Part shown: positions 36,008 through 55,062 of the stretch, piece by piece
Position numbering within the stretch: position 1 is the first letter of the stretch
Layout: each line of letters starts with the position of its first letter
NCBI GenBank assembly: GCA_905181865.1
Contig: CAJIZG010000004.1
Span: 248,001-312,000 of the forward strand
Source of the DNA: Urechidicola croceus
GTDB taxonomy: Bacteria > Bacteroidota > Bacteroidia > Flavobacteriales > Flavobacteriaceae
Direction: 5' to 3'
Length of the DNA: 64,000 nucleotides
Notes under the pieces: generated by a model
The model's input: the letters and a program-made list of their open reading frames with translations, nothing else
Told to the model about the DNA's origin: nothing
The model's database searches: none
Position numbers and translations under genes: made by a program

Positions 36008-36040
36008 TATCCTGTACTGTCATGTACCGTCCTGTACTGT
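36008..36040 (-). promoter_or_regulatory. Predicted operator: three tandem 10-bp repeats upstream of the rhamnose operon
   Basis: Read on the plus strand, CCTGTACTGT (36011), CATGTACCGT (36021) and CCTGTACTGT (36031) follow each other without gaps. The first is the end of the 13-mer TATCCTGTACTGT (36008-36020), whose reverse complement ACAGTACAGGATA recurs upstream of five other units of the locus. The site lies 59 bp ahead of the aldolase/SDR start. Inferred ligand: the GntR-type regulator encoded at 37356. Confidence 0.75.
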
Positions 36041-36152
36041 CCTACTTTTATAATTTTTTTTTACTACTAATAAATAGTTTTAAGTTTATTAATTCGTCTA
36101 AACATATAGGTACTCCGCGTCGACGGATTCTGAGGGCAAGGTCTAATACGTA

Positions 36153-36165
36153 ACAGTACAGGATA
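36153..36165 (+). promoter_or_regulatory. Predicted operator upstream of fbp and the GntR regulator gene
   Basis: ACAGTACAGGATA, a perfect copy of the 13-bp element in the direction of the gene, ending 81 bp before the fbp start. It implies co-regulation of FBPase and the regulator with the sugar genes. Confidence 0.72.
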
Positions 36166-36245
36166 CTTTCCATATAAAGTAACATTAGTTTTGAAGTCTA
36201 TTTGTGTTCAAGTTTGAACTAAATTAATTTTTCACAAAAAAAAAT

Positions 36246-37253
36246 ATGGATAAAAATCAACTTACATTAGGTGAATTTATTATTGAGAATCAAAAAGATT
36301 TTAAATACTCTTCTGGAGAACTTTCTAAATTAATAAACTCCATTCGTTTAGCGGCTAAAATTGTAAACCATCAGGTTAATAAAGCGGGTTTGGTGGATAT
36401 ATTAGGAGACATCGGTGAGACCAATATTCAAGGAGAAGATCAGCAAAAATTGGATCTGTATGCCAATGACGTTTTTAAATCTGCTCTTATTAACAGAGAA
36501 ATTGTTTGTGGTATTGCAAGTGAAGAAGAGGAAGATTTTATTACAATTGAGGGAAGGCAAAACACCCATGAGAACAAATATGTTGTATTAATAGATCCAT
36601 TAGACGGATCTTCAAATATTGATGTGAATGTATCTGTTGGAACAATTTTTTCTATTTATAGAAGAATTACGCCATCTGGCAAACCTGTTCAAAAAGAAGA
36701 TTTTTTACAACAGGGAAAAGAACAGGTGGCGGCTGGATATATTATTTATGGGACATCAACGATGTTTGTTTATACCACAGGACACGGAGTAAATGGTTTT
36801 ACTTTAAATCCGGCACTTGGAACTTTTTATTTATCGCATCCAGCGATGAGATTTCCCAAAAAAGGAACTATTCTGTCTATTAATGAAGGTAATTACACTC
36901 GTTTTCCACAAGGAGTAAAAGAATATATAAAGTTCTGTCAGGCTGAAGAAGAAGACCGTCCCTACACATTTCGATATATTGGGTCTTTGGTATCTGATTT
37001 TCATAGAAATATGATTAAAGGGGGGATCTACCTATATCCATCGAGTTCTAAAGCGCCTCATGGAAAATTGCGCTTATTGTATGAAAGTAACCCTATGGCA
37101 TTTATAGCAGAACAAGCTGGCGGGAGTGCAACCGATGGATATAACAGAATCATGGAAATTGAACCTAAGAAATTACATGAACGAGTTTCATTTTTTTGTG
37201 GGAATACTGAGATGGTAGAAAAAGCGGAGGAATTTATGAGAGGTTTTCAATAA
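36246..37253 (+). CDS. fbp: Fructose-1,6-bisphosphatase class I
   Basis: A 335-residue class I FBPase, which hydrolyses fructose-1,6-bisphosphate in gluconeogenesis. The metal-binding motif is [20 protein letters not shown], preceded by the Glu pair in [12 protein letters not shown]. The late motif [20 protein letters not shown] is also typical. It is divergent from the rhamnose operon with the shared 296-bp control region between them, and 102 bp upstream of the GntR regulator gene. A plausible reason is that rhamnose cleavage yields DHAP, and growth on it needs gluconeogenic flux. This is the only clear fbp in the window. Confidence 0.92.
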
Positions 37254-37355
37254 GATTAAGAGGTATTTAAAATAATTATATACTGTAGTATGTGTATTTT
37301 TACAGGGTTAGTTTTTTAGATTTACGAGTACACTTAAAATTAAAAGAAGATCAGC

Positions 37356-38402
37356 ATGGACATTTTTAAATACATAGATATTGATGAAAACTCAAGAAAG
37401 CCAAAATATATTCAAATCGTAGATTCCGTTACGCATAATATATCTCAAGGGAATTTTTCGATAGATGATAAAATGCCATCTATCAATATGTTAAGTGAGG
37501 AGTTTTATTTATCGAGAGATACGGTTGAAAAAGCGTATAAGATATTAAAAGAACGAAAAATCATCAATGCTGTAAGAGGGAAAGGATTTTATATTGCTCG
37601 GACCAATTTAAATTCAAAAATCAATATTTTATTTCTCATCAATAAATTGAGTTCGTACAAATTGCAAATATACAATGCATTTAACCGTAGTATTGGAGCT
37701 AATTCACATACCGATCTTCAAGTTTATCATTGTGATGAGACTTTATTTTTGAATTTATTAGAAAAAAATAAAGGAGCATATGATTATTATATTGTCATGT
37801 CGCATTTTAAAAGTGACGCTTTTAAACATATTAGCGCTCCGGATAAAGTTGTTGCAGCCATCAATAAAATTCCAAAGGAAAAATTGGTCATGTTAGACAA
37901 TCTTAATGATAAAATCGGTGGAAAAATAGTTAAGATCTATCAAGATTATGAAAATGACATTTATGAATCTTTAATTGAAGGTCATAAAAAAATAGTTAAA
38001 TACGAGAAATTGGTATTAGTGTATCCCGATAAATCTGTGTACCCTTATCCCAAAAGAATTGTGCATGGTTTTCGTAAATTTTGTATTGAAAAGTCCTTAG
38101 ATTTTGAAATTATTGATGAAATTTATGAAGATATGATTCTTAGAAAGGGAGATTTATTTATTACGATCGTTGAGGATGACTTAGTGAATTTAATCAACCA
38201 AATACGAGACAATGAATTTGAAGTAGGAAATGATATTGGAGTTCTTTCGTATAATGACACACGGTTAAAAGATCTTTTGGGGATATCTGTGATTTCTACC
38301 GATTTTAATATTATGGGAGCAACTGCGGCTCATATGATTTTAAATAAGGAAAAGGGGAGCGTAAAGAATCCATTTAATTTTATTGATCGGGCGTCTATGT
38401 AA
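37356..38402 (+). CDS. GntR-family transcriptional regulator with LacI-like effector domain, probable regulator of the rhamnose/sulfatase locus
   Basis: A 348-residue regulator. Residues 1-~75 are a GntR winged helix (PKYIQIVDSVTHNISQGNF, MPSINMLSEEFYLSRDTVEKAY, then GKGFYIA). Residues ~85-348 resemble a periplasmic-binding-protein-like sugar-sensing domain (INILFLINKLSSYKLQIYNAF, DIGVLSYNDTRLKDLLGISVISTDF). This GntR-LacI hybrid is common for sugar loci in Bacteroidota. It lies behind fbp, whose promoter carries the 13-bp element, so autoregulation is likely. The effector is probably L-rhamnose or a pathway intermediate, by context only. Confidence 0.83.
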   Translation: MDIFKYIDIDENSRKPKYIQIVDSVTHNISQGNFSIDDKMPSINMLSEEFYLSRDTVEKAYKILKERKIINAVRGKGFYIARTNLNSKINILFLINKLSSYKLQIYNAFNRSIGANSHTDLQVYHCDETLFLNLLEKNKGAYDYYIVMSHFKSDAFKHISAPDKVVAAINKIPKEKLVMLDNLNDKIGGKIVKIYQDYENDIYESLIEGHKKIVKYEKLVLVYPDKSVYPYPKRIVHGFRKFCIEKSLDFEIIDEIYEDMILRKGDLFITIVEDDLVNLINQIRDNEFEVGNDIGVLSYNDTRLKDLLGISVISTDFNIMGATAAHMILNKEKGSVKNPFNFIDRASM

Positions 38403-38424
38403 TCCTACCCCCTTTTTCTTGTAT

Positions 38425-39211
38425 CTATATATCCAGTTTTTCCATTCGAGTGGTCAAACTCCCAACCTTATCAATTTCGATTTTTAATGTTGTATCCCGA
38501 TCGATGTTCACCAATTCAACTGGGGATCCCGGAATGACCAAACTGTCTTTTTTTAGAGTTTTCTCCTTGTTTTGTGAGAAATGTCACCAACCATCGCAAA
38601 GAGTGAATAGGGCCACCCATGATCTCTGAACTTGGGGCAGATGTGACCAGATTTCCATCTTTGTACACTGAAAACACTTCATCTTTAAAAAGCAGTTTTC
38701 TGGGGTCAACTTTTTGCTCCCCTACAATGAGCCCAGCGTGAATCCCACCAGAACAAATTAATTCTTGTATTGTTGGTGGTTCAACCCAAAATTTGAAATT
38801 ATGAAGCTCAATACCAGGGCTAACATATGCTATTGAATTGATGAGTTCTTCATCGGATAGCTCTATTCCTTTCAAGTCCTTTCCAATTTTGAAGACCATT
38901 TCTGGTTCTATGGCGCAATTAACATACTTGCTATAGTCAATAATAGTCTTGCTATCTAGTATATGTGGTTGAAAAAGTCTCCCGTTTATGGGTTCATTGA
39001 TACCGAATTGTTCTCTTATAGCAGTACTCGTGCAACCGACTTTGTAACCCACCACACGTTCTCCTTTTTCTATTCTTTTCTTTGTTACCTCATCTTGAAC
39101 CTCATAAGCTTCAGCAACCCTAAGTCTACGTATGGCAGCATTGTTTCCAATCCATTCCTTTTTGTAAAAAGAATGACAGAAAGCAGCAGCTATTGAATCG
39201 AGTGATTTCAT
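38425..39211 (-). pseudogene. 2-keto-4-pentenoate hydratase/MhpD-like gene with a C-terminal frameshift
   Basis: The intact frame (39211 to 38516, 231 residues) has the MhpD/FAH-like landmarks VVGYKVGCTSTAIREQFG, NCAIEPEMVFKIG and VSPGIELHNFKF. It then runs out of register after FLTKQGEN and stops at 38516. One base shifted, the next frame continues with LKKDSLVIPGSPVELVNI and ends at 38425, matching the usual C-terminus of the family (x-G-D-LV-x-x-G). The break is at the AAAA run (plus-strand TTTT at 38559-38562): deletion of one A restores the reading frame. It is the last gene behind two sulfatase genes. The product would act on 2-keto acids or FAH-like substrates. A sequencing error is possible. 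Confidence 0.75.
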
Positions 39212-39214
39212 ATC

Positions 39215-40669
39215 TTACTTCCTGTCAGGATGCTTTCCCCATTCGTATCTTTTTGTTGCGTCAAATGCTGGATTGGGTACAGGTCGTTTAGCGTTGGTGT
39301 CTACTTGCCATTTTTTTAAAGCCGATTTCATTTCCGCTAACTTTTCTGAATAGCTATACTTAAGATCAGTCATTTCATTCACATCATATTTTAGATTGTA
39401 TAAGTCAAATTCACCTGACACCAAATTTTCAATGATTTTCCAGTCTCCTTTTCGAAGGGATGACATGGGTTGTTCATGATGATACACAGGATAATGCGTA
39501 AATACTTCGCGTTCCAGATCAAACTTATTTCCGGTCAATGCAGGAAGCATGGAATATCCATCAAAAACCTGATTCTTGGGGTGCTTCCCTTCTGCTAATT
39601 CTACTAATGTCGGATAAAAATCGACACTAGAAACTAGGGCTTTCGAACTCGCGTTTTCTTTGACCTTATTCGTCCACTTCACAATCAACGGTACACGAAC
39701 ACCTCCCTCATATAAAGTTCCTTTTCCTGCTCTTAATGGCGCATTAGAAGTGGCAATATATTGTAATGGGTGTCCGTCGGGGTACACGTTTTTACTGCGA
39801 CCTCCTAACAATGGAATATTGTCAAAACGATTGTCCACCCCACCATTGTCTGAATAAAAAATAACAATCGTGTTTTCTGTTAACCCTTCATCTTCTAAAG
39901 TTTGCATAATAGTACCAACACTTCTATCAATATGTTCTATCATGGCAGCGTACACTGCATTACCAGGATAATCAGGGTCTTTTTCTTTGTTTTTGTATTT
40001 GTCAATCAAATCCCTATCGGCATCTAATTGTACATGGACATCGTAATGAGAAACAAATAAAAAGAACGGCTGTTCTTTATTCTCTTTTATAAAGTCAACG
40101 CCCATATCGGTAAGTACTTCACTCAATCGTTTGTTTTCTGGCGCTTTAAATTCGGGTAAAAATTTTGGATTGTAAAAACCTCCACCGGCATACATATGTG
40201 CGGTATCATAGCCACGAGCATTGGGTAAAAGATTCGATTCATTACCTAAGTGCCACTTGCCAAAATATCCTGTTTTATATCCAACAGATTGCATAGCATC
40301 ACCAATAGTAGTAATATCTTCTGGTAAGTGTTGAACTTGATGAACTGGTACAGTTACTTCCTCAAAGGGACGCCAATGTCCAGGAATAAAATCGAATATT
40401 CCAACGCGTGCCGGATATTGCCCAGACTGAATACTGGCTCTTGTAGCTGAGCATACGGGTGCTGCGTAGGCGTTGCTAAATAGCATACCCTCACTTGCCA
40501 ATTTATCTATATTTGGGGACTCATTAAACTTGTTTCCATAAACGGCCAAGTCTCTTCCTCCCAAATCATCGGCCATTATCATGATGATGTTTGGACGGTC
40601 TTGTGCGGCACTTGAAAGTGACATGAGCACTGTAAATATTGCAACTGTTAAACGTTTAATTTGTCTCAT
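39215..40669 (-). CDS. Sulfatase (FGly type), exported
   Basis: A 484-residue arylsulfatase-superfamily enzyme with a signal peptide (residues 1-~22, ending SSAAQ). Metal and active-site motifs are present: IIMIMADDLGG, then the formylglycine site C73-S-A-T-R in APVCSATRASIQSGQ. GKWHLG, VIFYSDNGG and LRAGKGTLYEGGVRVPLIVKW also fit. The site follows the C-x-(P/A)-x-R rule, so maturation to formylglycine by an anaerobic-type or FGE-type enzyme encoded elsewhere is expected. It starts 52 bp behind the sulfatase gene at 40722 and ends 3 bp before the hydratase gene, one operon. The likely substrate is sulfated rhamnose or its oligomers. Confidence 0.88.
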   Translation of the reverse strand: MRQIKRLTVAIFTVLMSLSSAAQDRPNIIMIMADDLGGRDLAVYGNKFNESPNIDKLASEGMLFSNAYAAPVCSATRASIQSGQYPARVGIFDFIPGHWRPFEEVTVPVHQVQHLPEDITTIGDAMQSVGYKTGYFGKWHLGNESNLLPNARGYDTAHMYAGGGFYNPKFLPEFKAPENKRLSEVLTDMGVDFIKENKEQPFFLFVSHYDVHVQLDADRDLIDKYKNKEKDPDYPGNAVYAAMIEHIDRSVGTIMQTLEDEGLTENTIVIFYSDNGGVDNRFDNIPLLGGRSKNVYPDGHPLQYIATSNAPLRAGKGTLYEGGVRVPLIVKWTNKVKENASSKALVSSVDFYPTLVELAEGKHPKNQVFDGYSMLPALTGNKFDLEREVFTHYPVYHHEQPMSSLRKGDWKIIENLVSGEFDLYNLKYDVNEMTDLKYSYSEKLAEMKSALKKWQVDTNAKRPVPNPAFDATKRYEWGKHPDRK

Positions 40670-40721
40670 TTTATTTTTTTTTATTCGTTATTGTATCTTA
40701 GATTAGGTTTTTGTATTAATC

Positions 40722-42320: not shown

Positions 42321-42361
42321 GATTGTTTTCTCTTTTTTATGTTAAAATTCTTATTTATCTT

Positions 42362-42460
42362 TCAATTTGCTATTTCTGCAATATCTGCCCCATTTTTGTA
42401 CGCTTCTATCAAATTCACAAAAGGAACATCACGTGCTTCTTGTGAAATAGCAATACTCAT
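42362..42460 (-). pseudogene. Short gene remnant of unknown family
   Basis: An intact 32-codon frame ending VPFVNLIEAYKNGADIAEIAN reads like the C-terminus of an enzyme, but I do not recognise the family. It lies between a Fic gene and a sulfatase gene. The partial operator-like GTACTGTACT (42471-42480) lies just ahead of it. It is probably left over from a larger gene lost when the Fic module was inserted. Confidence 0.3.
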
Positions 42461-42481
42461 GAAATTAAAAGTACTGTACTA

Positions 42482-43957: not shown

Positions 43958-44134
43958 TATAACTTCCTAATACAACAAATTTGATGAATATTTTCCAATA
44001 TAGGACTTTTTACAACAAATATTTTCCATTATAAGGCGATTTAATTTTTGCCAATCTGAAAGTTTACAGGTACTTAGTTTACAAATTTTTTCTAATATAC
44101 CTTCGTTTTTGATAAATTTCTTCCAGTATAAATT
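43950..44134. repeat. Array of five degenerate repeats upstream of the first Fic gene
   Basis: This is most of a 336-bp gene-free interval. The core TTTTCCAnTATA recurs, with its first C at 43954 (TTCCATTATA), 43995 (TTCCAATATA), 44026 (TTCCATTATA), 44092 (TTCTAATATA) and 44123 (TTCCAGTATA). The spacings are 41, 31, 66 and 31 bp, mostly close to whole helical turns. Two copies are also preceded by TACAACAAAT (43971 and 44011). The first copy covers the Fic start codon. I infer an operator array for autoregulation, perhaps by the AbiEi-like domain. The rest of the interval to 44293 shows nothing I recognise. Confidence 0.6.
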
Positions 44135-44293
44135 ATGTTTATCACATTTCCTTGTATTTCATGAAAAGGTATATTTCATGAAAAGGGTTTTATTAAAAAT
44201 AGTTTATTTCAATAAGATTCCAACCACCTTTAAAAGTATCTATGATACTTGATTTCTGTATAATGTACTGAATTATTGCTGGTTGAAATGCCA

Positions 44294-45958
44294 TTACATT
44301 TCTGAAAACAAATTCATAAAAGGTGTTTCCCTAGATTCTTTATTTGGATTATAATTAGGATTAATAGATGGCCAATAGCGTTTTTCTATATTTTGTTTTA
44401 ACCAATCTTTTAACTTTTTAAATAGTTTATTGGTCAATTCTGGGTTGGTGCTGGATAAATTTGTTTTTTCAAAAGGATCGGTTTCAATATTATAAAGGTA
44501 TAACCTTCCATACCAATCAAAAATAAGTTTATAATCTCCATCACGTATTGCAGAATGTGGCGTTAAAGCTAAAGGCTCATAGGGACTGTTATAAATTACA
44601 TTGAAAGGGTAATGCCAATAATGCGCTGTTTTTGTATAGGTGTTTTTTGAATTTTGAGTGTCAGAAAGCAAAGAGAAAACACTCTGACCATCAAGTTTAT
44701 TGGTTTTTACAACAGCTTTTGAATTGTATCCTGCGGCCTCTAAAATAGTTGGAAAAATATCAGTACAATCTACAGGAACATCAACCCATTTTCCAGTTTC
44801 AATTTTGCCTTTCCATTTAAAGATAAGAGGTACTCTAATACCTCCTTCAGTTAAACAGGCTTTTCCTCCTAAAAAAGGACTATTGTCTGTACCATCACCC
44901 TTTGGTGTTATTTTGGAATCTATCCCACCATTATCAGACATAAAAACGACGAGTGTATTTTCTTCTAATCCTGTTTCTCTCAATTTGTTTAAAATAGCTC
45001 CAACCGAACGATCCATACTTTTTATCATGGATGCATATACGGGGTCTTTGTGTCCATTCCATCCTTTATTTTCCTTGTTTTGAAAATAGGAGACTTCATC
45101 TTCTTTTCCCTGATAAGGAGCATGTACGGCAAAATGTGAAAAATATAAAAAGAAGGGTTTTTTATTTTCTTTTGCTTGTTCATCAATAAAATAAAGCGCT
45201 TGTTTTGTTAAATCATCAGTTAGGTAATCTTCCCCGGTTTCTTTCCCTGTATCACCCATTTCCCATGCTTCTTGCGGCATATTTGGAAATATTTTTTTAG
45301 ATGTAATGTTCCAGTTTTTTTTCCAATTATAGTAGGGAGAACCACCAGCATCATACCAGGCTAATGTTTCAAACCCATGGTCTTTGGGTTGATGGCCTTG
45401 CGCACCAAAACCACCAATATGCCATTTGCCTATAAAAGCGGAATGATACTCTTTTAATGCTTCAGCAATTGATAACTCATCATTACCATTATCATATGTT
45501 GTTCCTGTTGCTATGGCAGAATTAGAAATACCATTAATCAGGGCTTGTTCAATTTTAATAGCGTCTTTATGTTCTAAAACATCATGTGCTAGATAACCTT
45601 CAGGTATGGGTAAATTTTGATTGTAATAGGTTTTTCTTATTGGCATAGCTGTGGTGAAACCTAGTCTTCCGGCATATTTCCCTGTAAGTAAACTGGCTCG
45701 GGTAGGGGAGCATAGTTGATTTGCGTAGGCTTGCGAAAAGGAAACGCCTTCACTCATTAGTTTATTTAGATTCGGGGTTTCGTAAAACATTTTATCAGGC
45801 GCTTCTCCTGTCAAGTGTTGAGCATATCCTTGTACATCCATATAACCAAAATCATCGGCTAAAATAAAAATGATATTCGGTTTGACTTCTTTAGGGAGCG
45901 CCGTTTTGCATCCTATTAAAAGTAGGGCACAAAAAGTAATACTGACCAATTTCTTCAT
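44294..45958 (-). CDS. Sulfatase lipoprotein (FGly type)
   Basis: A 554-residue sulfatase with a lipoprotein signal (MKKLVSITFCALLLIGC, lipobox Cys17), so it is probably membrane-anchored in the envelope. Motifs: IIFILADDFGYMD, FGly site C83-S-P-T-R in NQLCSPTRASLLTG, GKWHIGGFG, VVFMSDNGG and GKACLTEGGIRVPLIFKW. A perfect copy of the 13-bp operator lies 46 bp upstream, which makes this gene a separately regulated unit. A 3' fragment of an isomerase gene sits just beyond the operator. Confidence 0.88.
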   Translation of the reverse strand: MKKLVSITFCALLLIGCKTALPKEVKPNIIFILADDFGYMDVQGYAQHLTGEAPDKMFYETPNLNKLMSEGVSFSQAYANQLCSPTRASLLTGKYAGRLGFTTAMPIRKTYYNQNLPIPEGYLAHDVLEHKDAIKIEQALINGISNSAIATGTTYDNGNDELSIAEALKEYHSAFIGKWHIGGFGAQGHQPKDHGFETLAWYDAGGSPYYNWKKNWNITSKKIFPNMPQEAWEMGDTGKETGEDYLTDDLTKQALYFIDEQAKENKKPFFLYFSHFAVHAPYQGKEDEVSYFQNKENKGWNGHKDPVYASMIKSMDRSVGAILNKLRETGLEENTLVVFMSDNGGIDSKITPKGDGTDNSPFLGGKACLTEGGIRVPLIFKWKGKIETGKWVDVPVDCTDIFPTILEAAGYNSKAVVKTNKLDGQSVFSLLSDTQNSKNTYTKTAHYWHYPFNVIYNSPYEPLALTPHSAIRDGDYKLIFDWYGRLYLYNIETDPFEKTNLSSTNPELTNKLFKKLKDWLKQNIEKRYWPSINPNYNPNKESRETPFMNLFSEM

Positions 45959-46003
45959 TTTGGTAAATTTTTACTCAAAAAAAAGGAATAAAAAGAAAAT
46001 GAG

Positions 46004-46016
46004 TATCCTGTACTGT
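46004..46016 (-). promoter_or_regulatory. Predicted operator upstream of the sulfatase gene at 44294
   Basis: TATCCTGTACTGT on the plus strand (ACAGTACAGGATA in the direction of the gene), 46 bp ahead of the start codon. Perfect copy of the locus-wide element. Confidence 0.72.
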
Positions 46017-46103
46017 CTGAATTTTTATTTGAATAAAAAGTGTGGTTTGTTTATAAAAAGTACACCTTATAATAGAGTGATCAAACTCATCTTTACTTTC
46101 TGT

Positions 46104-46170: not shown

Positions 46171-46190
46171 TCAAATTTATAGGCGGCCTT

Positions 46191-47684
46191 TTATAGATTT
46201 GGGAACCACTCCTGATCAAATGATTTTCTGAGTTTTGATAAAACTTCCGAATAAGATTGTTCATTCGTGAAATGTGTTTTTTCATAGGGGTCTGTATTCA
46301 AATCCATCAAACGTTCCTCGGTTCCCACAGCATCATACCTCACGTATTTGAAACCATCTTCACTCACTACCATTCGACCAATTTCACTTTCAACCCCAAG
46401 TGTTTTACGAGATGTTATTTTATTCCCTTCAAACAAGGGCTTTAGACTTATACCTCGTGGATCTGATTGCCCTTTAATGCCGGCATAATCACAAACAGTA
46501 GGCAATAAGTCAAGGCCATTTGAAACAAGGTTTTTAGTGTTCACCTGTCCGGCAGGTATTTTTCCCTTCCACATAGCCATAAATGGTATGTTGGCTGATT
46601 CTTCATATAATACAGTTTTGTGTTCCATTTTATGAGACGCATCATTATCACCATGATCACTTGAGAAAATTACCAGCGTATTTTCCTCTTGCCCGCTCTT
46701 TTTTAAGGCATCCAATATAACTTGTATCTGTCCATCAACCTTTTCGGTAAGACGCGCATAAGCCCAACGATGAATGCGCCATTGCTCTATTGTATATTTA
46801 TTACGTGCACTTATTCGAAATGAGCGCTCTTCCAACATGGCGCTTATGGCTTTGGGCTCGTCTTTTTGAGGTTCAAAGTTCGCTGGTAGCGGTGGACAAT
46901 GTTTTGCAAAAAACTCATCTTTGCCAACTCCTGAAGGCAATTCTAATGCCTTATCTAAGGTAGCAACCTCTGTTTTACCATGTCTTAGAATAGCTTTATC
47001 TCCTTCCGATTCAGCAAAATCTCGAATCGCCATATAGCAAATATCATGAGGGTTAATAAGCGACACCGTCATAAAATAGGGTTTGGTATGTGTTTGCTTA
47101 ATATACTTTGCAGCTTCTTCAGCAAGGCCGTCTCTTTCATTATTGGTAATATCAACAAACCCCAACGCTTTGGGAGTTAGTGAGGGAGGTAAATGTTCTT
47201 TTCCGCCAAAGGCGAGATCATAGCCTGCATCTTTTAGGTAGGCAGCAATTGTGGTGGTTTGTATATCTTCATTCACTTCAGGTATTTTCATTGAACCGGA
47301 ATTATTTCTCACCTGTTTCCCGTTTTTATCTTTAAAATACCCTGGGAATCTACCGGTCATCAAACTTACACGGGCAGGCGAGCATACCGGATTTGTAGTA
47401 TAGGCCCTCGTGAATCGTATGCCATTATTTGCGATATAGTCCATTGCTGGAGTTTTGACATATTTATTGCCGGCGCAACTCATCATGGTCTCACTTAGCT
47501 GATCGGTATAAATATAAATTATGTTTGGCTTATCGATATTCTCTTTTTCGGCTACTTGCTTTGTAGTATTTATACAAGAGCATAAAACGGCAAAAGGAAT
47601 AATAAATAATATTCGTGGTTTGATAAAATTCAGTTTTTTAATGACTCTTTTTACTTTCATTCTTCTGATAACTATCCGTTTCAT
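46191..47684 (-). CDS. Sulfatase lipoprotein (FGly type)
   Basis: A 497-residue sulfatase. The hydrophobic ILFIIPFAVLCSC with a following Asn/Thr linker suggests a lipoprotein signal. The ATG at 47684 gives a long basic lead, and the ATG at 47660 (MKVKRVIKK) would give a more ordinary signal peptide. Motifs: IIYIYTDQLSE, FGly site C101-S-P-A-R in NPVCSPARVSLMTGR, VIFSSDHGD and EESANIPFMAMW. The DHGD form and choline-sulfatase-like layout (TDQ in place of ADD) set it apart from the other three. It starts 13 bp after the isomerase-like gene and is in the operon driven from ahead of rhaT. Confidence 0.85.
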   Translation of the reverse strand: MKRIVIRRMKVKRVIKKLNFIKPRILFIIPFAVLCSCINTTKQVAEKENIDKPNIIYIYTDQLSETMMSCAGNKYVKTPAMDYIANNGIRFTRAYTTNPVCSPARVSLMTGRFPGYFKDKNGKQVRNNSGSMKIPEVNEDIQTTTIAAYLKDAGYDLAFGGKEHLPPSLTPKALGFVDITNNERDGLAEEAAKYIKQTHTKPYFMTVSLINPHDICYMAIRDFAESEGDKAILRHGKTEVATLDKALELPSGVGKDEFFAKHCPPLPANFEPQKDEPKAISAMLEERSFRISARNKYTIEQWRIHRWAYARLTEKVDGQIQVILDALKKSGQEENTLVIFSSDHGDNDASHKMEHKTVLYEESANIPFMAMWKGKIPAGQVNTKNLVSNGLDLLPTVCDYAGIKGQSDPRGISLKPLFEGNKITSRKTLGVESEIGRMVVSEDGFKYVRYDAVGTEERLMDLNTDPYEKTHFTNEQSYSEVLSKLRKSFDQEWFPNL

Positions 47685-47697
47685 CTGTTATTTCTGT

Positions 47698-49122
47698 TTA
47701 GCAAATCTTCACCACATCAATATTTAATATTTGACCCAACTTTTCAATTTTATCAGCAATATGGCCAACTCCAATGGCACAGTGATGTGACGGTCCTTGT
47801 TTCGACCATTCATTCATAAAACGTTTCGCTCCAATCGAAAATTTATAACGACTGTTGGTGTTTCCTATTTGCAACATTGGGCCTTCTACCGATTCGCCCT
47901 CAGCGACTAACAGGAATATTCCGTCTTTGCCTTCTACTACAGACAACAAAGTCACCGGACCATGTTTCACGGTCATTTGAATAGAGAGTCCTTTGCCTGG
48001 TTTTCCATGATAAACAGGTAGTGGTACAAGATTTACACGACCTTCTGCAATGGCGTAATGTGCTGGGCCGTCATGTCCAAGGTATACAGCGTCATCCTTA
48101 AAGTCTATCAAATAGAATTCAGAGAAGGAACCACCAACTCCAAACGCTGACATAATTTTCATAGCCTGTGCATTTTTCACTTCACATTCTCCTGATATAG
48201 GAATATTTTTTCCGGTAAGTAATGTATTACCGGCAATGACAGATGTAACTATATTTTCGTACTCATTGCCAGATTCACCTTCGTAATAATAGGCCATGGA
48301 ACCAAGATCGCGAGCATCGATAAGTTTGTCGAGGGCTACCGAAGTTTGAGCGGCACGTTTAATTTCTGAGGTTTCACATTCTTCTGATACATCGAATGCG
48401 GTATTGAATTCTTCTATTTTCTTTTGTACGTCTTCTTCGCTTGCTTCATCTCGGTACTTTTTCAATTCGCACATTTCGAGTAATTCGATGTGCGTGCCAA
48501 ATACAGCCGATTGCAGTGTAAGGTCTGAGTACACATCAAGCATCCCATTGTAATAATGCCCCAAAATACCCAAACGGTTATTTCTCATTGTAGCTGCTAC
48601 TGAGGCTGCCTCTGTCCACGCTTTTATATCATTCCAGGCTTCATTGTCCTGTAAATGGCCTGTTACAAAATCATACTGAACCCCAGATCTATTCAAAACC
48701 GAAGCAATTTCTGGAACGGAACATGCCTGACAGTTTTCTAGCCATGCACCAGTCATTTGACCACGATCTCCTAAATTGTTAAATGCTTCGTAATCCAATT
48801 GTGCAACAGGTTGAAGATTTAGTATCACAACAGGGATTTTCAATTTTTGTGCTACAGGTAGCACAGTAGAGGAGAGGGCGTAGGTGGAAACATACAGAAA
48901 CACAATCTCCACATCCTGAGATTTCAGGAAATCTGCTGCTTCTCGAGCCTTTACCGGATTGTCTACCATGCCCGCGTCTGCCACTTCTACACCAAAACCA
49001 GTAATTTTATTTTTAATCTGTTCTTGATAGCCTGTCAGTTTATCAAGTAATCCGTCAAATTGGGGCCAGTATGTATCTAGTCCGATTCCAAACAAACCGA
49101 CTGTTATATTATTTTTTTTCAT
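47698..49122 (-). CDS. L-arabinose/L-fucose isomerase-like protein
   Basis: A 474-residue protein of the L-fucose/L-arabinose isomerase superfamily: N-terminal sugar-binding Rossmann-like part (ITVGLFGIGLDTYWPQFDGL), central NIPISGECEVKNAQAMKIMSAF, then SFSEFYLIDFKDDAVYLGHDGPAHYAIAEG with the Glu/His metal-site region and C-terminal HHCAIGVGHIADK. It would interconvert an aldose and ketose. The substrate is open, since the same locus has a dedicated L-rhamnose isomerase. L-fucose, L-arabinose or another deoxy sugar released with rhamnose are candidates. It lies 73 bp behind rhaT in the same operon. Two truncated copies of its 3' end occur at 28017 and 46104. Confidence 0.78.
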   Translation of the reverse strand: MKKNNITVGLFGIGLDTYWPQFDGLLDKLTGYQEQIKNKITGFGVEVADAGMVDNPVKAREAADFLKSQDVEIVFLYVSTYALSSTVLPVAQKLKIPVVILNLQPVAQLDYEAFNNLGDRGQMTGAWLENCQACSVPEIASVLNRSGVQYDFVTGHLQDNEAWNDIKAWTEAASVAATMRNNRLGILGHYYNGMLDVYSDLTLQSAVFGTHIELLEMCELKKYRDEASEEDVQKKIEEFNTAFDVSEECETSEIKRAAQTSVALDKLIDARDLGSMAYYYEGESGNEYENIVTSVIAGNTLLTGKNIPISGECEVKNAQAMKIMSAFGVGGSFSEFYLIDFKDDAVYLGHDGPAHYAIAEGRVNLVPLPVYHGKPGKGLSIQMTVKHGPVTLLSVVEGKDGIFLLVAEGESVEGPMLQIGNTNSRYKFSIGAKRFMNEWSKQGPSHHCAIGVGHIADKIEKLGQILNIDVVKIC

Positions 49123-49195
49123 ATTTCTTCTATTTATTTATGAATATTATAAAGGATGCTTTTTCAAAACACCAGTATATGTAACCTCTGATTAC

Positions 49196-50248
49196 TTACA
49201 TCGAGTTACCAATTCCTACCAACACAACAGAGAGTAGAATAACCACAATACCAATCGTAATAGTCCATTTAGTCTTTAGCGCTACACCATTCCATTCCTT
49301 GCGGTAAATTCCCCACATATTGGCCGTTAAAATGATTGTTGACATATGCAGTATCCACGAACTCGCACCGTTACCCAATTTGCTTTCTCCCATGCCGTAG
49401 AAAAAGAATTGTAAAAACCAGATGCCTCCTGCAAAAGCAGAAAACAGAATATTCTTTGCAATAGGGGTCGACTTATTTGTAAAATCTGTATAGGATTTAT
49501 TTTTTATACTCAAAATTATAGTCCATACTAAATTGGTTGTTAATCCTCCCCATAGAATGACAACAAACGTGACGTTGTTTTGATATAATGGGTTATAACC
49601 AGCTGCTACTGCGGCATCTGCTAAAGGCTTTCCTGCCTCTATTCCAAAATTAAAAAAAGAACTCAGAATTCCTGAGAGTACGGCAATAGCAAGGCCTTTA
49701 TATAAACTGAATTCAGCAATCGTTTTTTTCTTTTCCTCGTCAGAAAGTTCGTTCTCCTTCATCATGCCTGCTTTACCAGAAATAGCAATGCCAATCAAAC
49801 AAACCAGTACCCCTAAAAGCACCAATTTCCCACCAGACGTTGCCATCATATCTGTAAATGAAATTTTCCCCTCTGTTGGATTCAGGTTATAATAAACAGA
49901 CGGAACGAGTGCACCAAAAGCTGCGCAAAAACCAAGTACTACGGAATTCCCTAAAGACATTCCGAGATATCGTATACCTAATCCATAAGACAATCCTCCA
50001 ACGCCCCAAAGCAATCCCATGACAAATGTGAAGTATAAAATTTGACCAGAACTTGCGGCAATAATTTCGGCAAATCCGGGAATGGTAATCCAGGCCGCCA
50101 ATGGTGGGATAATGAGCCAAGAAACGGTGCCGCCTACCATCCAATAACTCTCCCATGCCCATTTTTTCACTTTGTTGTAAGGCATGTAAAAACTACCCGC
50201 TGCTACACCTCCCAGTGAGTGGAATAGAACTCCTAATATTGCTTGCAT
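49196..50248 (-). CDS. rhaT: L-rhamnose/proton symporter RhaT
   Basis: A 350-residue inner-membrane carrier with about ten hydrophobic segments, close to the length of E. coli RhaT. Family text: GVLFHSLGGVAAGSFYMPYNKVKKWAWESYW at the start (residues 5-35), GVGGLSYGLGIRYLGMSLGNS, and GGIWFLQFFFYGMGESKLG near the end. It imports L-rhamnose with H+. An operator copy (12 of 13 bases) lies 64 bp upstream. It is followed by the isomerase-like and a sulfatase gene, so uptake, isomerisation and desulfation are expressed together. Confidence 0.92.
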   Translation of the reverse strand: MQAILGVLFHSLGGVAAGSFYMPYNKVKKWAWESYWMVGGTVSWLIIPPLAAWITIPGFAEIIAASSGQILYFTFVMGLLWGVGGLSYGLGIRYLGMSLGNSVVLGFCAAFGALVPSVYYNLNPTEGKISFTDMMATSGGKLVLLGVLVCLIGIAISGKAGMMKENELSDEEKKKTIAEFSLYKGLAIAVLSGILSSFFNFGIEAGKPLADAAVAAGYNPLYQNNVTFVVILWGGLTTNLVWTIILSIKNKSYTDFTNKSTPIAKNILFSAFAGGIWFLQFFFYGMGESKLGNGASSWILHMSTIILTANMWGIYRKEWNGVALKTKWTITIGIVVILLSVVLVGIGNSM

Positions 50249-50311
50249 ATAATTTTGTTAATTAATATTATCATGAATGATCACAAATAAAATAAAAATG
50301 TAAAGAAAAAG

Positions 50312-50323
50312 TATCCTGTACTG
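50312..50323 (-). promoter_or_regulatory. Predicted operator upstream of rhaT
   Basis: TATCCTGTACTG on the plus strand (the final T of the 13-mer is C here), 64 bp ahead of the rhaT start. Confidence 0.68.
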
Positions 50324-50330
50324 CTTTAGA

Positions 50331-50645
50331 TTAATCCAGATAAAACACTTCTTCTAAGGCTACTGTAACAGGAGAATTGTCTTTATTCACTTCCATGATA
50401 TCCGACATAAACTTCCACCATTTTTTTACAATTTCTGTTTGTCCTAAATCTTGAGAACTTCCATCTCCGGTTACTTTCTGAAAAGCGAATAAGATATTCG
50501 TTTCTTCATCCAAATAAATAGCATATTCGCTCACCCCTGAATCTTTGAGTAATCGTTTCAATTCAGGCCAAATTTCATCGTGTCGTTTCTTATAGGCTAC
50601 TTTTTGCCCCTCATTGAGTTGCATTTTAAAAGCGATTCGTTGCAT
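50331..50645 (-). CDS. rhaM: L-rhamnose mutarotase
   Basis: A 104-residue RhaM/RhaU protein that interconverts alpha- and beta-L-rhamnose. The N-terminus MQRIAFKMQLNEGQ, YKKRHDEIWPEL with Tyr18 and His22 (the positions of the catalytic residues in the E. coli protein) and ETNILFAFQKV are family-specific. Length is normal. It is a single-gene unit with its own perfect operator copy 59 bp upstream, 82 bp from rhaT. This gene and RhaT are the strongest evidence that the locus handles rhamnose. Confidence 0.93.
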   Translation of the reverse strand: MQRIAFKMQLNEGQKVAYKKRHDEIWPELKRLLKDSGVSEYAIYLDEETNILFAFQKVTGDGSSQDLGQTEIVKKWWKFMSDIMEVNKDNSPVTVALEEVFYLD

Positions 50646-50703
50646 TTACTGTGGTTTAAATATCTTATAATGAATGCAAGAAACTAAAAATATAATAAAG
50701 GTG

Positions 50704-50716
50704 TATCCTGTACTGT
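50704..50716 (-). promoter_or_regulatory. Predicted operator upstream of rhaM
   Basis: TATCCTGTACTGT on the plus strand, 59 bp ahead of the rhaM start, a perfect copy of the element. The 190 bp between this and the Fic repeat array hold nothing I recognise. Confidence 0.72.
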
Positions 50717-50906
50717 CTTGCTCATCCCGTAGACCTCTAAAAAAGTTTTGAGTGGTCGTAAAAAATTGAAATTAGGAGGTTGTTGGTTGTTACAATTAAA
50801 AACGGAATTGAAAATGAATTCCCTTTTATCCAAAAACAGGAGACTTTTTTAAACGAAAAAAGTTTGTTTTTTGCAGATTGTTTGTACCAATAAATGCAAA
50901 GCACTT

Positions 50907-51071
50907 AAATTAAAATTACCTTTTAAATCTCTATTAAAACTAATAATACCCTTAAGAAACTGTTTTTACCCAAAAAAACCGATGATGAACAAAACCTATA
51001 TTGGTTAAACCTTTTTTACCCTTGTTAAATAAAAATAAACTGCATTTACCTTTGTGAAACTAAATTTACTC
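50907..51071. repeat. Array of six helically phased repeats upstream of the second Fic gene
   Basis: Part of a 442-bp interval without genes. A unit of about 15 bp, AAAC, six variable bases, then TTACC or similar, starts at 50907 (weaker), 50937, 50957, 51007, 51037 and 51057. The ACC (ACT in the last) ends fall at 50920, 50950, 50970, 51020, 51050 and 51070, so every spacing is an exact multiple of 10 bp (30, 20, 50, 30, 20). All copies would face the same side of the helix. The last ends 17 bp before the Fic ATG at 51088. I infer an operator array or a binding platform for a cooperative regulator. Confidence 0.65.
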
Positions 51072-51087
51072 CAGTAAATAGAAAAAA

Positions 51088-52575
51088 ATGAAAAAAGTAG
51101 GATTTACATGGCTACAGGAAAAATTAGATATCAAAGGCTTTCTATTAACGCATCAGTCTTACATCGGAACAACTGATAAAACAGAGTTAAGTTTAACAGG
51201 TTCTGTTATACGCACATTCAAATCAAAATATGATGTGAGTATTGATAGCCCAATGTCGCATTTGGAATTTGCACTAAAATATGATGACTTGAACCTTGCA
51301 TTCATCAGGGAAGTTTTTATCGCTACAAAACATCAAACAATAGTAGACTATATCAAAGCAAAACCAAATCGAAAATACCCAAGAATAATTGGATTTTTAT
51401 ATGAATTTACCGGAGGTAAATCAATAGATATTGATGTCACGACCACCAATTACGAGGATATTTTAGATGCGTCTCGATATGTCACTGGAAATATTAAAAA
51501 AATATCCAAATGGAAAGTAAACGATAATTTTCTGGGGTCAAAAGGCTTCTGCCCAGTAATCAGAAGAACTACCGAACTTAGCGAATTACTTGAATGGAAT
51601 ATTAAAGATGCAATTGAAAATCTAAAACACGAATATTCTCAAGAAATTTTTAATAGAGCTAGTTATTATCTTTATAAAAAAGAGTCAAAATCCTCCAGTG
51701 AAATAGAAAAAGAAGAACCATCGCGAGACAGAATGGAAAGGTTCATAACATTATTAGAGGAAGCAGGGCAAAAAACTTTTGAAGAAACACTATCTGAAGA
51801 AGAATTAGTTCGGTTACAAAACGCAATTGTTGACCCAAGATATGCTGATCGGAGTTTTCGAGACTTTCAAAACTATCTAGGTCAAACAATGAGAGATTAT
51901 ACACAGAAAATACATTATGTCTGTCCACCACCACAATTTGTAAGATCTCTTATGCAAGGAATCGTTGACCTGTACAAAAAGAACTCATCAACAGCAACGA
52001 TTATAAAAGCCACAATGATATCATTTGGTTATGTATTTACCCATCCATTTGAAGACGGTAATGGAAGAATTCATCGCTTTCTAATTCATGATATTCTGGT
52101 ACGTGACGGAATTGTACTAAACAGTACAATACTTCCTGTTTCTTCTCAAATACTTGCCCATATGGATGAATATGATGCTACGTTAGAGTTACTTTCTAAA
52201 TTGATTGAGCAAAGGGTAAAGTATGATATTAATGATGCTGGAGAAATGACGGTTAACAACGCATCCGAAATAGAAGCATTGTATCGATTTCCGGACTTAA
52301 CCAATCATACTGTATTTTTGGCAAGGGCTATACAATCTACGGTTACAAAAGATATTCCAGAAGAACTTCTTTTTCTTCAGTGTTATGATGAATTGAAGGG
52401 TGATATTCAGAATATAGTAGATATGCCAGACAATAAAGTTGATCGCATGATTTTATTTCTTCACCAGAATAAAGGGATACTTGCAAATCGTAAACGAAAA
52501 CATTACAAAGAACTGAGTGATAATGAAATCGAACAAATGGAGCAGGCCTATTCTCACGTATTTGAAGGGAAATAG
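51088..52575 (+). CDS. Fic-domain protein
   Basis: A 495-residue Fic protein. The N-terminal ~140 residues (FTWLQEKLDIKGFLLTHQSYIG onward) are a helical domain of unknown role. The Fic core is near residues 240-400 and has the full motif THPFEDGNGRIHRFL (HPFxxGNGR). The C-terminal ~100 residues may include a winged-helix-like part (NKVDRMILFLHQNKGILANRKR). With the catalytic motif intact, AMP-transfer to a protein target is expected. It is transcribed opposite to the sugar genes that surround it and is preceded by its own phased repeat array. The repeat sequence differs from that of the first Fic gene, so each module probably carries its own control. Confidence 0.85.
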   Translation: MKKVGFTWLQEKLDIKGFLLTHQSYIGTTDKTELSLTGSVIRTFKSKYDVSIDSPMSHLEFALKYDDLNLAFIREVFIATKHQTIVDYIKAKPNRKYPRIIGFLYEFTGGKSIDIDVTTTNYEDILDASRYVTGNIKKISKWKVNDNFLGSKGFCPVIRRTTELSELLEWNIKDAIENLKHEYSQEIFNRASYYLYKKESKSSSEIEKEEPSRDRMERFITLLEEAGQKTFEETLSEEELVRLQNAIVDPRYADRSFRDFQNYLGQTMRDYTQKIHYVCPPPQFVRSLMQGIVDLYKKNSSTATIIKATMISFGYVFTHPFEDGNGRIHRFLIHDILVRDGIVLNSTILPVSSQILAHMDEYDATLELLSKLIEQRVKYDINDAGEMTVNNASEIEALYRFPDLTNHTVFLARAIQSTVTKDIPEELLFLQCYDELKGDIQNIVDMPDNKVDRMILFLHQNKGILANRKRKHYKELSDNEIEQMEQAYSHVFEGK

Positions 52576-52694
52576 AACAATATACAACTAGTAATTAATG
52601 TAATTGTTTTCTCTTACTGACATTTATCTTATCTATCAAAATCAAAAGAAACACTTAGCAACGACGCAGCCTTTACTTCACTACGATTTTAAAA

Positions 52695-53603
52695 TTACCA
52701 TGTAACAAACCCACTTTTACCCATCCAATCAAACAATGGCTGCATCCATTCATCGGTTGGTAAACTCAATACAAAGCCATGATTTCCTTTTGGGTACAGG
52801 TGCATTTCTGCAGGAACTTTATTTCCAATTAAATTTTGGTAAAAGCGGATACTGTTCTCAACAGTAACCACATTGTCGTCTCCGGCATGTGTTATCCAAG
52901 TAGGTGGGGTATTGGGGCTAACATGCAATTCATTTGAAAACAACATAACTTGTTCTGTAGAGGGGTTCTTACCAAGTAAATTTTGTCGTGATCCGAGATG
53001 GGTTATTTCGTCTTTCATACTGATTACGGGATACACCAACATCATGAAATTTGGTTTTAAACTTATATTTTCAACATTTGGAATATATGATTTGTTAAAA
53101 TGGGTTCCGGCGGTTGAAGCCAAATGGCCTCCTGCTGAGAACCCCATAATCCCGATTTTTTCAGCATCCAAATTCCATTCTGAAGCATGCTGACGCACTG
53201 TTTTAATTGCTTGTTGGGCATCTTGTAAGGGTCCTATTGTTTTATCAATCATGATGGAATCGCTTGGCAATCGATATTTTAGGATGAAAGCTGCAATTCC
53301 TTTGCGCACAAAGGATTCAGCAATTTGGGTGCCCTCGTGTAGATAACTTTCTCCTGAATAGCCACCGCCTGGACAAATGATTACTGCTGCTCCTGTGGCT
53401 ATTTCTTTTTTTGGGTGAAATAGTGTCAATGTTGGATTTGAAACTTTTCTATACCACGTAATATGTCCATTTTTGGCAGTGACAATTTCTTTCATGGGAA
53501 AAGGTTTGCTGTTAGGGATGGAAGTAGGGTAGAGGTCTACTATTTGTTGTGCTTCCAAATGAATGGAAACTATTAGTAATAGCATTAAAGCAATTTGTTT
53601 CAT
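52695..53603 (-). CDS. Exported alpha/beta hydrolase (acetyl-esterase/lipase-like)
   Basis: A 302-residue protein starting at ATG 53603, which places the signal peptide MKQIALMLLLIVSIHLEAQ at the N-terminus. A longer frame to 53657 adds a polar lead and is less likely. Esterase motifs: AAVIICPGGGYSGESY (oxyanion HGGG-like), IMGFSAGGHLAS (nucleophile GxSxG), ITHAGDDNVVTVENS (Asp) and GNHGFVLS (His). Such enzymes in polysaccharide loci remove acetyl or other acyl groups from sugars. It lies in the sugar locus, downstream of the GH99-like gene in the same direction, 176 bp apart. No 13-bp element precedes it directly. Confidence 0.8.
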   Translation of the reverse strand: MKQIALMLLLIVSIHLEAQQIVDLYPTSIPNSKPFPMKEIVTAKNGHITWYRKVSNPTLTLFHPKKEIATGAAVIICPGGGYSGESYLHEGTQIAESFVRKGIAAFILKYRLPSDSIMIDKTIGPLQDAQQAIKTVRQHASEWNLDAEKIGIMGFSAGGHLASTAGTHFNKSYIPNVENISLKPNFMMLVYPVISMKDEITHLGSRQNLLGKNPSTEQVMLFSNELHVSPNTPPTWITHAGDDNVVTVENSIRFYQNLIGNKVPAEMHLYPKGNHGFVLSLPTDEWMQPLFDWMGKSGFVTW

Positions 53604-53779
53604 AGATGTCGAATTAATTTCAATTGTTATTCCTTTTTTTATTTCCAAAAATAGCAACTATTTAAGTACTTCGGAATGCTCATCCCATAAATGTATTCGT
53701 TGTTTTGCTGTTGTATGTTCTTGTTTTACAAAATTGGTAAACCTTGTTTACATGTACAATTTGGTCTTGTAAAATCTTT

Positions 53780-54997
53780 CTATTCTATTATAAAAACTTC
53801 TTTAACTGCCTCTAAATAACTCATACCATTCACTTCGTCTGGCTCCAAATAACTTCCTTCGGTCCATTCGTTCCAGCAATTGATATTTAAAATTCTCGGT
53901 CCATCTGGATCTGCTAACAATTTATCTTTTGTTAGTTGCAAGGCTGCTTTAAAATTAGCAGGTGTATTGTTGCCAATGGTATTCATAAAAGGATAACCTA
54001 CTGGCTCCCATTCAGATTCTATAGCGCAGCGAGGTGTTGAATTCCAGCCCATAGTTACATTAGGGATATAAGGAACACCATGTTCTTCCTTCGCTGTATC
54101 CCAATACTTCACATATTCATCACGCACGTAGTTGTAATCTGTTTGTGTTTCGGGTAAAGCTACATGGTGAATCCATACATAAGAAGTGCTAGAATCAAAG
54201 CCTAGTTTATCTATAAGTTCGTTCGTGTTTTCTGGTGGTGTTTCAACAGGTAAAATAGGGCGACCCCAAACCACAATATTCCAATGTACACCTTTTAGTC
54301 CTGCAGCAATGGCTTTTTCGCGCATTTTATCCATGGCTGCTTTGGTGGCTTCAATGCTACCAAACCCTTCCACAAATTTTTGTACATCATAGACAGAGAA
54401 ATAGGCTTTTCCATCTATTTTCCAATAGTTGGATTTTGTAAAATATTGTTCTACGAGCAGATTAGAAATGTCTTCATAACGTTCTGGAGATACCTTTCCG
54501 GGATATAACAATCTTTGTTCTTCACCTTTGACGTATGGATGGATATCTACCCAATCGTGGTTTGCCCACATGAGACCAAAATTCATTTTCTCGGAGTTTT
54601 CCGCCTCTAAAAAACCTTCATCTAAACATCGATTTAAAAAAGGACCGTCTTCATACATATACCAATCAAAAATAAAGGTGTCGACTCCATGGTTTGCAGC
54701 GGCATCAATTTTTTGCGCCATCACTTTTGGGTCTTTCTCATCGTTATAACCCCAGGCTGGAACATTTGGTTGGTGATCTCCTGGAAAACGTGGTGTTGCA
54801 TTTTTTACTAATTCCCATTCTGCCCAGCCTTCACCTTTAAACTCCGTGTTTCGGGCATCGTCTGTATGGTAATTTGGAAAATAATAAGCCGCTACCGTTA
54901 TTTTATCCTCTGTAAGTGTGTTTTCTTTTTTCTTTCTAGATTCACAAGATACTAGGAAAATAATTCCTGCCAAAATTAAAATTGATTGACTATTCAT
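53780..54997 (-). CDS. GH99-like / WbsX-type lipoprotein glycoside hydrolase
   Basis: A 405-residue lipoprotein (MNSQSILILAGIIFLVSC, lipobox Cys18). The text VAAYYFPNYHTDDARN, GWAEWELVKNATPRFPGDHQP, VDTFIFDWYMYEDGPFLNRCL and NINCWNEWTEGSYLEPD is characteristic of the GH99-like domain first named in WbsX proteins. Members include endo-acting glycosidases, and uncharacterised ones are frequent in Bacteroidota polysaccharide loci. The glycosidic bond it cuts cannot be stated. It is the only recognisable glycosidase in the locus. A perfect operator copy lies 53 bp upstream, so it belongs to the predicted rhamnose regulon. Confidence 0.78.
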   Translation of the reverse strand: MNSQSILILAGIIFLVSCESRKKKENTLTEDKITVAAYYFPNYHTDDARNTEFKGEGWAEWELVKNATPRFPGDHQPNVPAWGYNDEKDPKVMAQKIDAAANHGVDTFIFDWYMYEDGPFLNRCLDEGFLEAENSEKMNFGLMWANHDWVDIHPYVKGEEQRLLYPGKVSPERYEDISNLLVEQYFTKSNYWKIDGKAYFSVYDVQKFVEGFGSIEATKAAMDKMREKAIAAGLKGVHWNIVVWGRPILPVETPPENTNELIDKLGFDSSTSYVWIHHVALPETQTDYNYVRDEYVKYWDTAKEEHGVPYIPNVTMGWNSTPRCAIESEWEPVGYPFMNTIGNNTPANFKAALQLTKDKLLADPDGPRILNINCWNEWTEGSYLEPDEVNGMSYLEAVKEVFIIE

Positions 54998-55049
54998 AAA
55001 TTTAATTTGTTTTTGTTACCACGATATTATTTATTTTTTAGACAATACG

Positions 55050-55062
55050 TATCCTGTACTGT
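55050..55062 (-). promoter_or_regulatory. Predicted operator upstream of the GH99-like gene
   Basis: TATCCTGTACTGT on the plus strand, followed by CATGTAAAAA, a partial second 10-bp unit as seen in front of the rhamnose operon. It is 53 bp ahead of the start. Confidence 0.72.

Follow-up and report, generated by a model that had tools for sequence, protein, structure and literature searches.

AraR of Bacillus subtilis joins a GntR winged helix to a sensor of the LacI/GalR type, and it is a repressor with a palindromic operator. Regulators of the MocR/GabR type combine a GntR winged helix with an aminotransferase-type sensor; they serve other pathways, have direct-repeat sites and activate. Among the sugar regulators of Bacteroides thetaiotaomicron tabulated in PMC3878776, RhaR is listed as AraC, and FucR and ManR as GntR; the E. 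coli RhaS system is the one employed in PMC12858550. Here we describe a rhamnose locus in a 64,000-nucleotide stretch of the Urechidicola croceus genome (termed the window: assembly GCA_905181865.1, contig CAJIZG010000004.1, positions 248,001 to 312,000), where a 13-bp element, ACAGTACAGGATA, recurs upstream of genes for rhamnose use. We think it likely that this element belongs to the operator of a rhamnose regulon widespread in Flavobacteriaceae and reaching Lewinella relatives, and that its reader is the GntR-LacI regulator encoded at 37356, with its orthologues, acting as a class II activator.

An earlier note on the window had reported six copies of the element, and all six were recovered: five exact copies and one with a single mismatch. 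They lie at 36008..36020 (- strand) upstream of the rhaEW operon, at 36153..36165 (+) upstream of fbp and possibly also of the regulator gene behind it, at 46004..46016 (-) upstream of a sulfatase gene (44294-45958), at 50312..50324 (-; first base differing) upstream of rhaT, at 50704..50716 (-) upstream of rhaM and at 55050..55062 (-) upstream of a WbsX/GH99-like gene. The note's orientation and distance hold as well, each site pointing to its own gene from 46-81 bp before the start codon. At up to one mismatch the window contains 6 matches against 0.05 expected, and six were reached in none of 100 dinucleotide shuffles.

That the element occurs nowhere outside the locus is true of the window, but the genome contradicts it. 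The whole 3.42-Mb sequence has six exact copies, five being those of the window and the sixth, at C3:426375 (positions 8376-8388 of locus L009), lying upstream of a second rhaM. There are also six one-mismatch copies: the window rhaT site, one upstream of a second rhaT (C3:425980), three within open reading frames and one overlapping a reading frame called on the opposite strand; a reversed control pattern matches twice. Since the copies of the second locus stand before rhaM and rhaT, this exception favours a regulon, although the rhaM-rhaT pairs of the two loci are similar and their elements are therefore not independent. The second pair occupies L009 6767-8388, and its rhaT copy, located between rhaM and rhaT, has three full pentamers, CAGTA CAATA CAGGA TA, and no -7 box at +20. 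Looser scans with the bare element were uninformative: at three mismatches there are 22 matches against 14.4 expected, and among the matches listed for a 12-mer at one mismatch all 18 genomes searched have some, many of them background. A three-pentamer pattern and a matrix were consequently required.

The element is not the stand-alone 13-mer that had been supposed; it is the end of a tandem array of pentamers with a fixed promoter position. Upstream of rhaEW the array has six units, CAGTA CAGGA CGGTA CATGA CAGTA CAGGA TA (36008..36040, - strand; matrix score 26.6), of which the element is the final part, and similar head-to-tail pentamers occur in relatives, for example CAGTACAGTACAGGATA, CAGGACAGTGCAGGATA and CAGTACAGCACAGGATA. 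The consensus, CRGKA-YAGTR-CAGGA-T(A/G), derives from 72 sites judged non-coding (8 from the own genome and 64 from relatives), 45 of 117 motif matches having been dropped for an open frame of at least 110 amino acids across the site or for lack of a downstream gene. At the single sites of the window the last two units fit the matrix well and the first unit poorly (scores 12.9 to 26.6). Shifted against itself by 5 bp the matrix gives a correlation of 0.68 and by 10 bp one of 0.84, both above its best inverted-repeat correlation of 0.56, and for this reason we prefer a direct repeat. The palindromic operator of AraR-like GntR-LacI regulators was not seen in this matrix test, though a partial palindrome is present, so that the direct repeat is the better, not the sole, description of the operator.

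The flavobacterial promoter box TAnnTTTG (-7 box), matched at 5/6 or better, starts exactly 20 bp after the 12-mer at 55 of the 64 relatives' sites and at 4 of the 8 in the own genome; no other offset counts more than 3 in either group, and the top single-offset count in 500 shuffles was 7. The 20-bp spacer itself is hardly conserved in sequence. A score of 18 or more is reached by 119 sites, which lie in 73 of the 79 named loci (by none with the reversed matrix), and 82 of them have the box at +20; this set overlapped the training set, some named loci being training contigs (9 sites identical to training sites, 7 duplicates). With the overlaps removed, 103 sites in 64 loci lie outside the matrix set, 74 of them with the box at +20 and the next offset having 7. 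In the own genome the composite pattern CAGNACAGGAYR-N19..21-TNNNTTTG has 4 matches, all in this locus, and its control has 0. The box reads TAAATTTG for the rhaEW operon (35980..35987, - strand) and TAGTTTTG for fbp (36186..36193, +), both 6/6 and 20 bp after the element; it is TTTTTTTG before the sulfatase gene at 44294-45958 (45976..45983, -; 5/6) and TTTATTTG before rhaT (50284..50291, -; 5/6). At +20 we find TTTCTTGC before rhaM (50676..50683, -; 3/6) and TAATATCG before the WbsX/GH99-like gene (- strand; 4/6). The +20 sequences of rhaM and of its L009 paralogue (TTTATTGC) are nearer TAnnTTGY (SM5), a box described in PMC9723704, than TAnnTTTG.

In F. psychrophilum the TAnnTTTG box is assigned in PMC9723704 to sigma-A, the primary sigma factor, at -12 to -5. 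Set 20 bp from a box so placed, the 17-bp operator spans about -49 to -33. This is the position of a class II activator, in place of the -33 box, and the 74 of 103 sites at exactly +20 abut the core promoter at a fixed distance, centred near -41. A fixed spacing to the -7 box would also be expected of a -33 element, and the element might thus be part of an alternative sigma-factor promoter; as the window copies are sense-oriented and close to the start codon, a signal in 5′ leader RNA can be imagined too. Either explanation is highly improbable. The downstream box is that of sigma-A, which led us to reject an alternative sigma box, and restriction to genomes with one regulator is unexpected for a sigma element; the RNA signal was rejected because the element precedes the -7 box and hence the transcript.

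The regulator gene lies at 37356..38402 (+ strand). Its product is a GntR winged helix (PF00392, 47.1 bits, cut-off 27) joined to a LacI-type sugar-binding domain. PF13377 scores 21.7 bits, below its cut-off of 26.5, and the sensor is recognised from an AlphaFold2 model (mean pLDDT 88.8), for which Foldseek ranks regulators of the LacI family first (E 5.6e-12, TMq 0.55). The DNA-binding models that match the product are GntR and HTH_41, and none is of AraC, DeoR or LacI type. Partial copies of the regulator are found in the own genome at C4:499558-500142 (84% identity, residues 154-348) and C3:551878-552060 (82%, 61 residues).

We surveyed 397 genomes of the family, finding a regulator orthologue (E <= 1e-75) in 81 and the strict three-pentamer motif, CRGKAYAGTRCAGGA, in 75. 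Both are present in 65 genomes, the regulator only in 16, the motif only in 10 and neither in 306 (Fisher p 4e-48, uncorrected for phylogeny); the motif is thus found in 65/81 regulator-positive genomes and in 10/316 without the regulator. Among the 134 strict matches in regulator-positive genomes, 34 fall within 2 kb of a regulator gene. Sixteen regulator-positive genomes, the window's own among them, lack a match to the strict pattern. For 15 of the 16 the stretch read contains a relaxed site followed at +20 by a box of 4/6 or better (in G100 it is a weaker site that has 5/6, the best-scoring one having 3/6; in G189 the matrix score reaches only 11.9); no relaxed site with box was found in the stretch read of the sixteenth, G306. 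Strict matches of the ten motif-only genomes have box scores of 0-3 at +20; in G285 a weaker match in a shifted register has a 5/6 box. Because gene clusters are inherited together, co-occurrence was also conditioned on the target gene rhaEW: among 94 rhaEW-positive genomes the strict motif is present in 65/80 with the regulator vs 0/14 without it (p 4e-9). Twenty-five genera hold both states, of which 18 follow the regulator, 0 show the opposite and 7 are uninformative.

Another regulator of the cluster, of the AraC type or a hybrid two-component sensor, could in principle read the element while the GntR-LacI protein merely travels with it. PMC3870299 and PMC3878776 describe the Bacteroides RhaR as an activator of the AraC type that uses direct-repeat sites, and an AraC-type gene, its family recognised by eye, lies near the second rhaM-rhaT locus (L009 10169-11038). 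We nevertheless consider this improbable: the motif follows the GntR-LacI gene among rhaEW-positive genomes, in a regulator survey that covered the GntR-LacI type only, and its sequence differs between GntR-LacI clades with a different recognition helix. An AraC-type RhaR was rejected as the reader, the 37356 product belonging to another family. The 37356 regulator, already singled out in the earlier note, is the best candidate by co-occurrence, by the rhaEW-conditioned test and by the change of the operator with the regulator.

Of the 14 rhaEW genomes that lack a close orthologue, 7 carry a diverged regulator of 40-42% identity (clade C). In 6 of the 7, CAGAA replaces CAGGA in the arrays, each genome having the box, at 5/6 or better, 20 bp after at least one array; no CAGAA array was found in the other, G282. 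The recognition helix reads SRDTVEKAY in most regulators of clades A/B and SRDT(V/I)V(R/K)AY in clade C (E58 to V). With the critical base left free, a site was found in 94 of 127 rhaEW upstream regions: the base is G in 76/76 loci with an A/B regulator (E58; one Q58) and in 14/14 with no regulator in the stretch, and A in 4/4 clade-C loci passing the thresholds. These sites were chosen partly by their -7 box, so they are evidence on the base and not on the spacing. The other 33 regions have no site above the thresholds; 19 are Flavobacterium loci, in 17 of which the element sits at rhaT instead.

A sister clade (D; helix SRDTVFKAY, F58) has CAGAA arrays at its own gene start in six loci: L091 8644-9662 (own genome C4:400644-401662), L028, L029, L035, L036 and L037. 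In 4/6 the array is preceded, at a distance of 5 bp, by a -7 box of 5/6 or better; this would set the array at about +1 to +15, a place suited to autorepression. Behind the own-genome member lie a gene for a xylulokinase-like kinase, one for a xylose isomerase (TIGR02630 above cut-off) and one for a sodium:solute symporter, and for that reason this member is probably a xylose regulator. Since clade D also has arrays, array reading seems older than the rhamnose role; in clade E loci (L017-L022, L025, L027, L039) no pentamer array was seen. We tentatively put forward, as possible rather than expected, a rule for the Bacteroidota GntR-LacI family: its members would read a tandem 5-bp head-to-tail array with no palindrome, residue 58 would set one base (E58 CAGGA; V58 or F58 CAGAA), and the place of the array would set the sign, activation from -49 to -33 in the rhamnose clades and repression at about +1 to +15 in the xylose-type clade D. 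If true, the residue-58 code and head-to-tail array would be a new operator architecture with a simple recognition code.

Targets were collected from the window, L009, L072-L091 and the 79 named loci, giving 172 distinct genes in single-linkage clusters, each named from one representative or window member. Among them are 49 rhaEW, 21 rhaT, 20 sulfatases (one fused to a GH78-type rhamnosidase), 17 SusC, 6 rhaM, 6 homologues of the transporter at 28492, 5 GDSL-type genes, 4 fbp and 4 copies of the regulator itself; small clusters and single targets are of GH106, GH2, GH43, GH5, GH39, PcRGLX, oligogalacturonate-lyase-like and ulvan-lyase (PF24208) type. One site thus stands before several rhamnose genes in many genomes. 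For the 153 targets scoring at least 16 the box at +20 reaches at least 4/6 in 140 and at least 5/6 in 112, and one genome, G015, has eleven intergenic sites across about 110 kb, all on one strand. Autoregulation of the regulator is weakly supported, 2/4 of its own sites scoring at least 16 and 1/4 having a box. The regulon is real and family-wide, with an unusual operator, and it is probably a rhamnose and rhamnose-glycan regulon activated by the 37356-type regulator. The targets bear out the claim that the element ties monosaccharide catabolism, sulfatases and a glycosidase-like gene into one regulon. The theme of sulfated rhamnose fared less well: sulfatases are one large class, but what unites the targets in relatives is rhamnose and, in general, the glycans that contain it, as the ulvan lyase, the GH78- and GH106-type rhamnosidases and the PcRGLX-type proteins indicate.

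The idea that the window's six units are the whole regulon was dropped, given the second rhaM-rhaT pair of L009 and a further candidate at C3:1053875. The latter is a pentamer array at L328 10860-10913 (own genome C3:1053860-1053913; score 24.0, 5/6 box at +20), about 200 bp before an operon encoding a planctomycete-type cytochrome (PSCyt1/PSCyt2/PSD1), DUF1501, a phosphomannose-isomerase-like protein, cytochrome c and a 3-keto-disaccharide hydrolase; this operon is a possible further regulon member.

The mechanism that we infer builds on the computed sites, spacing, targets, co-occurrence and joint change of regulator and operator; direct binding, activation and effector are its conjectural parts. 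The effector bound by the LacI-type domain would be L-rhamnose, or else L-rhamnulose or its phosphate as an early intermediate. The operator, CRGKA-YAGTR-CAGGA-T(A/G), ends exactly 20 bp before the sigma-A -7 box, replacing the -33 box, and from -49 to -33 the liganded regulator would contact RNA polymerase in class II activation, which we favour because the placement is fixed and one-way; the earlier note is silent on activation. This would switch on uptake (SusC, RhaT, RhaM), the catabolic operon (RhaI, RhaB, RhaEW and a flavin mononucleotide (FMN)-dependent dehydrogenase), rhamnose-releasing sulfatases and glycosidases, and fructose-1,6-bisphosphatase for gluconeogenesis from triose phosphate, perhaps with the regulator too via the fbp unit. 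RhaEW yields lactate and dihydroxyacetone phosphate as described in PMC3870299; rhamnose growth should therefore need gluconeogenesis, which makes sense of fbp in the regulon.

Several points tell against this picture. The family-wide co-occurrence is uncorrected for phylogeny in genes that are passed on as one cluster, a weakness that the rhaEW condition and the genus contrasts remedy only partly; the joint change of operator and regulator is probably a single evolutionary event, as the tree suggests one change. At +20 the box match falls to 3/6 for both rhaM copies of the own genome and to 4/6 for WbsX, and rhaT promoters of relatives (score at least 16) reach 4/6 in 19/20 and 5/6 in 0/20. 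Lastly, AraR-type GntR-LacI proteins are named repressors (PDB name), and the main rival is repression by the same regulator at the same operator, covering the -33 region and blocking RNA polymerase until released by rhamnose or an intermediate. The clade D arrays directly downstream of the -7 box are in such a repressor-like place. A repressor, however, needs neither the exact 20 bp nor a single orientation, and an operator in place of the -33 box leaves the promoter looking weak unaided; we judge repression unlikely, and favour activation by the 37356 regulator.

Among the genes of the locus, the - strand carries a membrane transporter, very weakly NCS1-like (28492..29907; 42 bits, cut-off 353), whose homologues in relatives (50-86% identity) carry the element. 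In the same orientation follow the FMN-dependent dehydrogenase, presumably of lactate dehydrogenase type (29929..31077; PF01070), an FGGY kinase that is probably RhaB (31086..32462; PF00370, TIGR02627 weak), a RhaI-type L-rhamnose isomerase (32473..33750; TIGR02629 511 bits, below the cut-off of 647) and RhaEW of the rhamnulose-1-phosphate aldolase / lactaldehyde dehydrogenase type (33844..35949; NF006191 and TIGR02632 above cut-off). On the + strand lies fbp for fructose-1,6-bisphosphatase (36246..37253; PF00316, PF18913). The remaining units are again on the - strand: the sulfatase (44294..45958; PF00884); the rhaT unit, with a sulfatase (46191..47684; PF00884), an isomerase of arabinose/fucose isomerase type (47698..49122; PF11762) and RhaT of rhamnose-proton symporter type (49196..50248; PF06379); RhaM, an L-rhamnose mutarotase (50331..50645; PF05336, TIGR02625); and the WbsX-family, GH99-like protein (53780..54997; PF14307). 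The isomerase of the rhaT unit is additional to the RhaI-type enzyme; its nearest likeness, a weak one, is to sulfoquinovose isomerase (67.7 bits, cut-off 700). Two Fic-domain proteins (PF02661; 42482-43957 and 51088-52575) also lie inside the locus.

Searches of open-licence PubMed Central papers brought up no title or abstract on this element or on a flavobacterial GntR-type rhamnose regulator, subscription journals and RegPrecise being outside the scope of that search, and the words 'GntR' and 'Flavobacteri' are absent from the main text of PMC3870299. If our account is true, one control point governs how many genera of the Flavobacteriaceae, which as a family take an active part in degrading algae, use rhamnose and rhamnose-glycans such as ulvan. 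By means of the composite operator of pentamers, 20-bp spacer and -7 box, even genes distant from the locus could then be placed in the regulon from sequence alone, and unknown enzymes might be traced in this way; the system would be a clean test case for a GntR-LacI chimera as class II activator on a direct-repeat operator.

Compared with known systems, AraR of B. subtilis resembles the 37356 product in its DNA-binding domain (PDB 4egy aligns with residues 14-81, E 1.4e-6), in the LacI-type sensor fused to it and in governing a sugar regulon; unlike its palindrome, the operator here is a 5-bp direct repeat at the -33 position. The MocR/GabR-type regulators differ in their aminotransferase-type sensor, that of the 37356 product being LacI-type. 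FucR and ManR of B. thetaiotaomicron are likewise GntR-family sugar regulators of Bacteroidota but, as compared by their table entries in PMC3878776, serve fucose and mannose with a motif each. The RhaR regulons of Bacteroidales and other lineages, as presented in PMC3870299 and PMC3878776, share the pathway roles, RhaEW and the direct-repeat sites of AraC-type activators; they differ in using AraC, DeoR or LacI regulators, and in repeat periods of 10-11 and 21 bp, vs 5 here.

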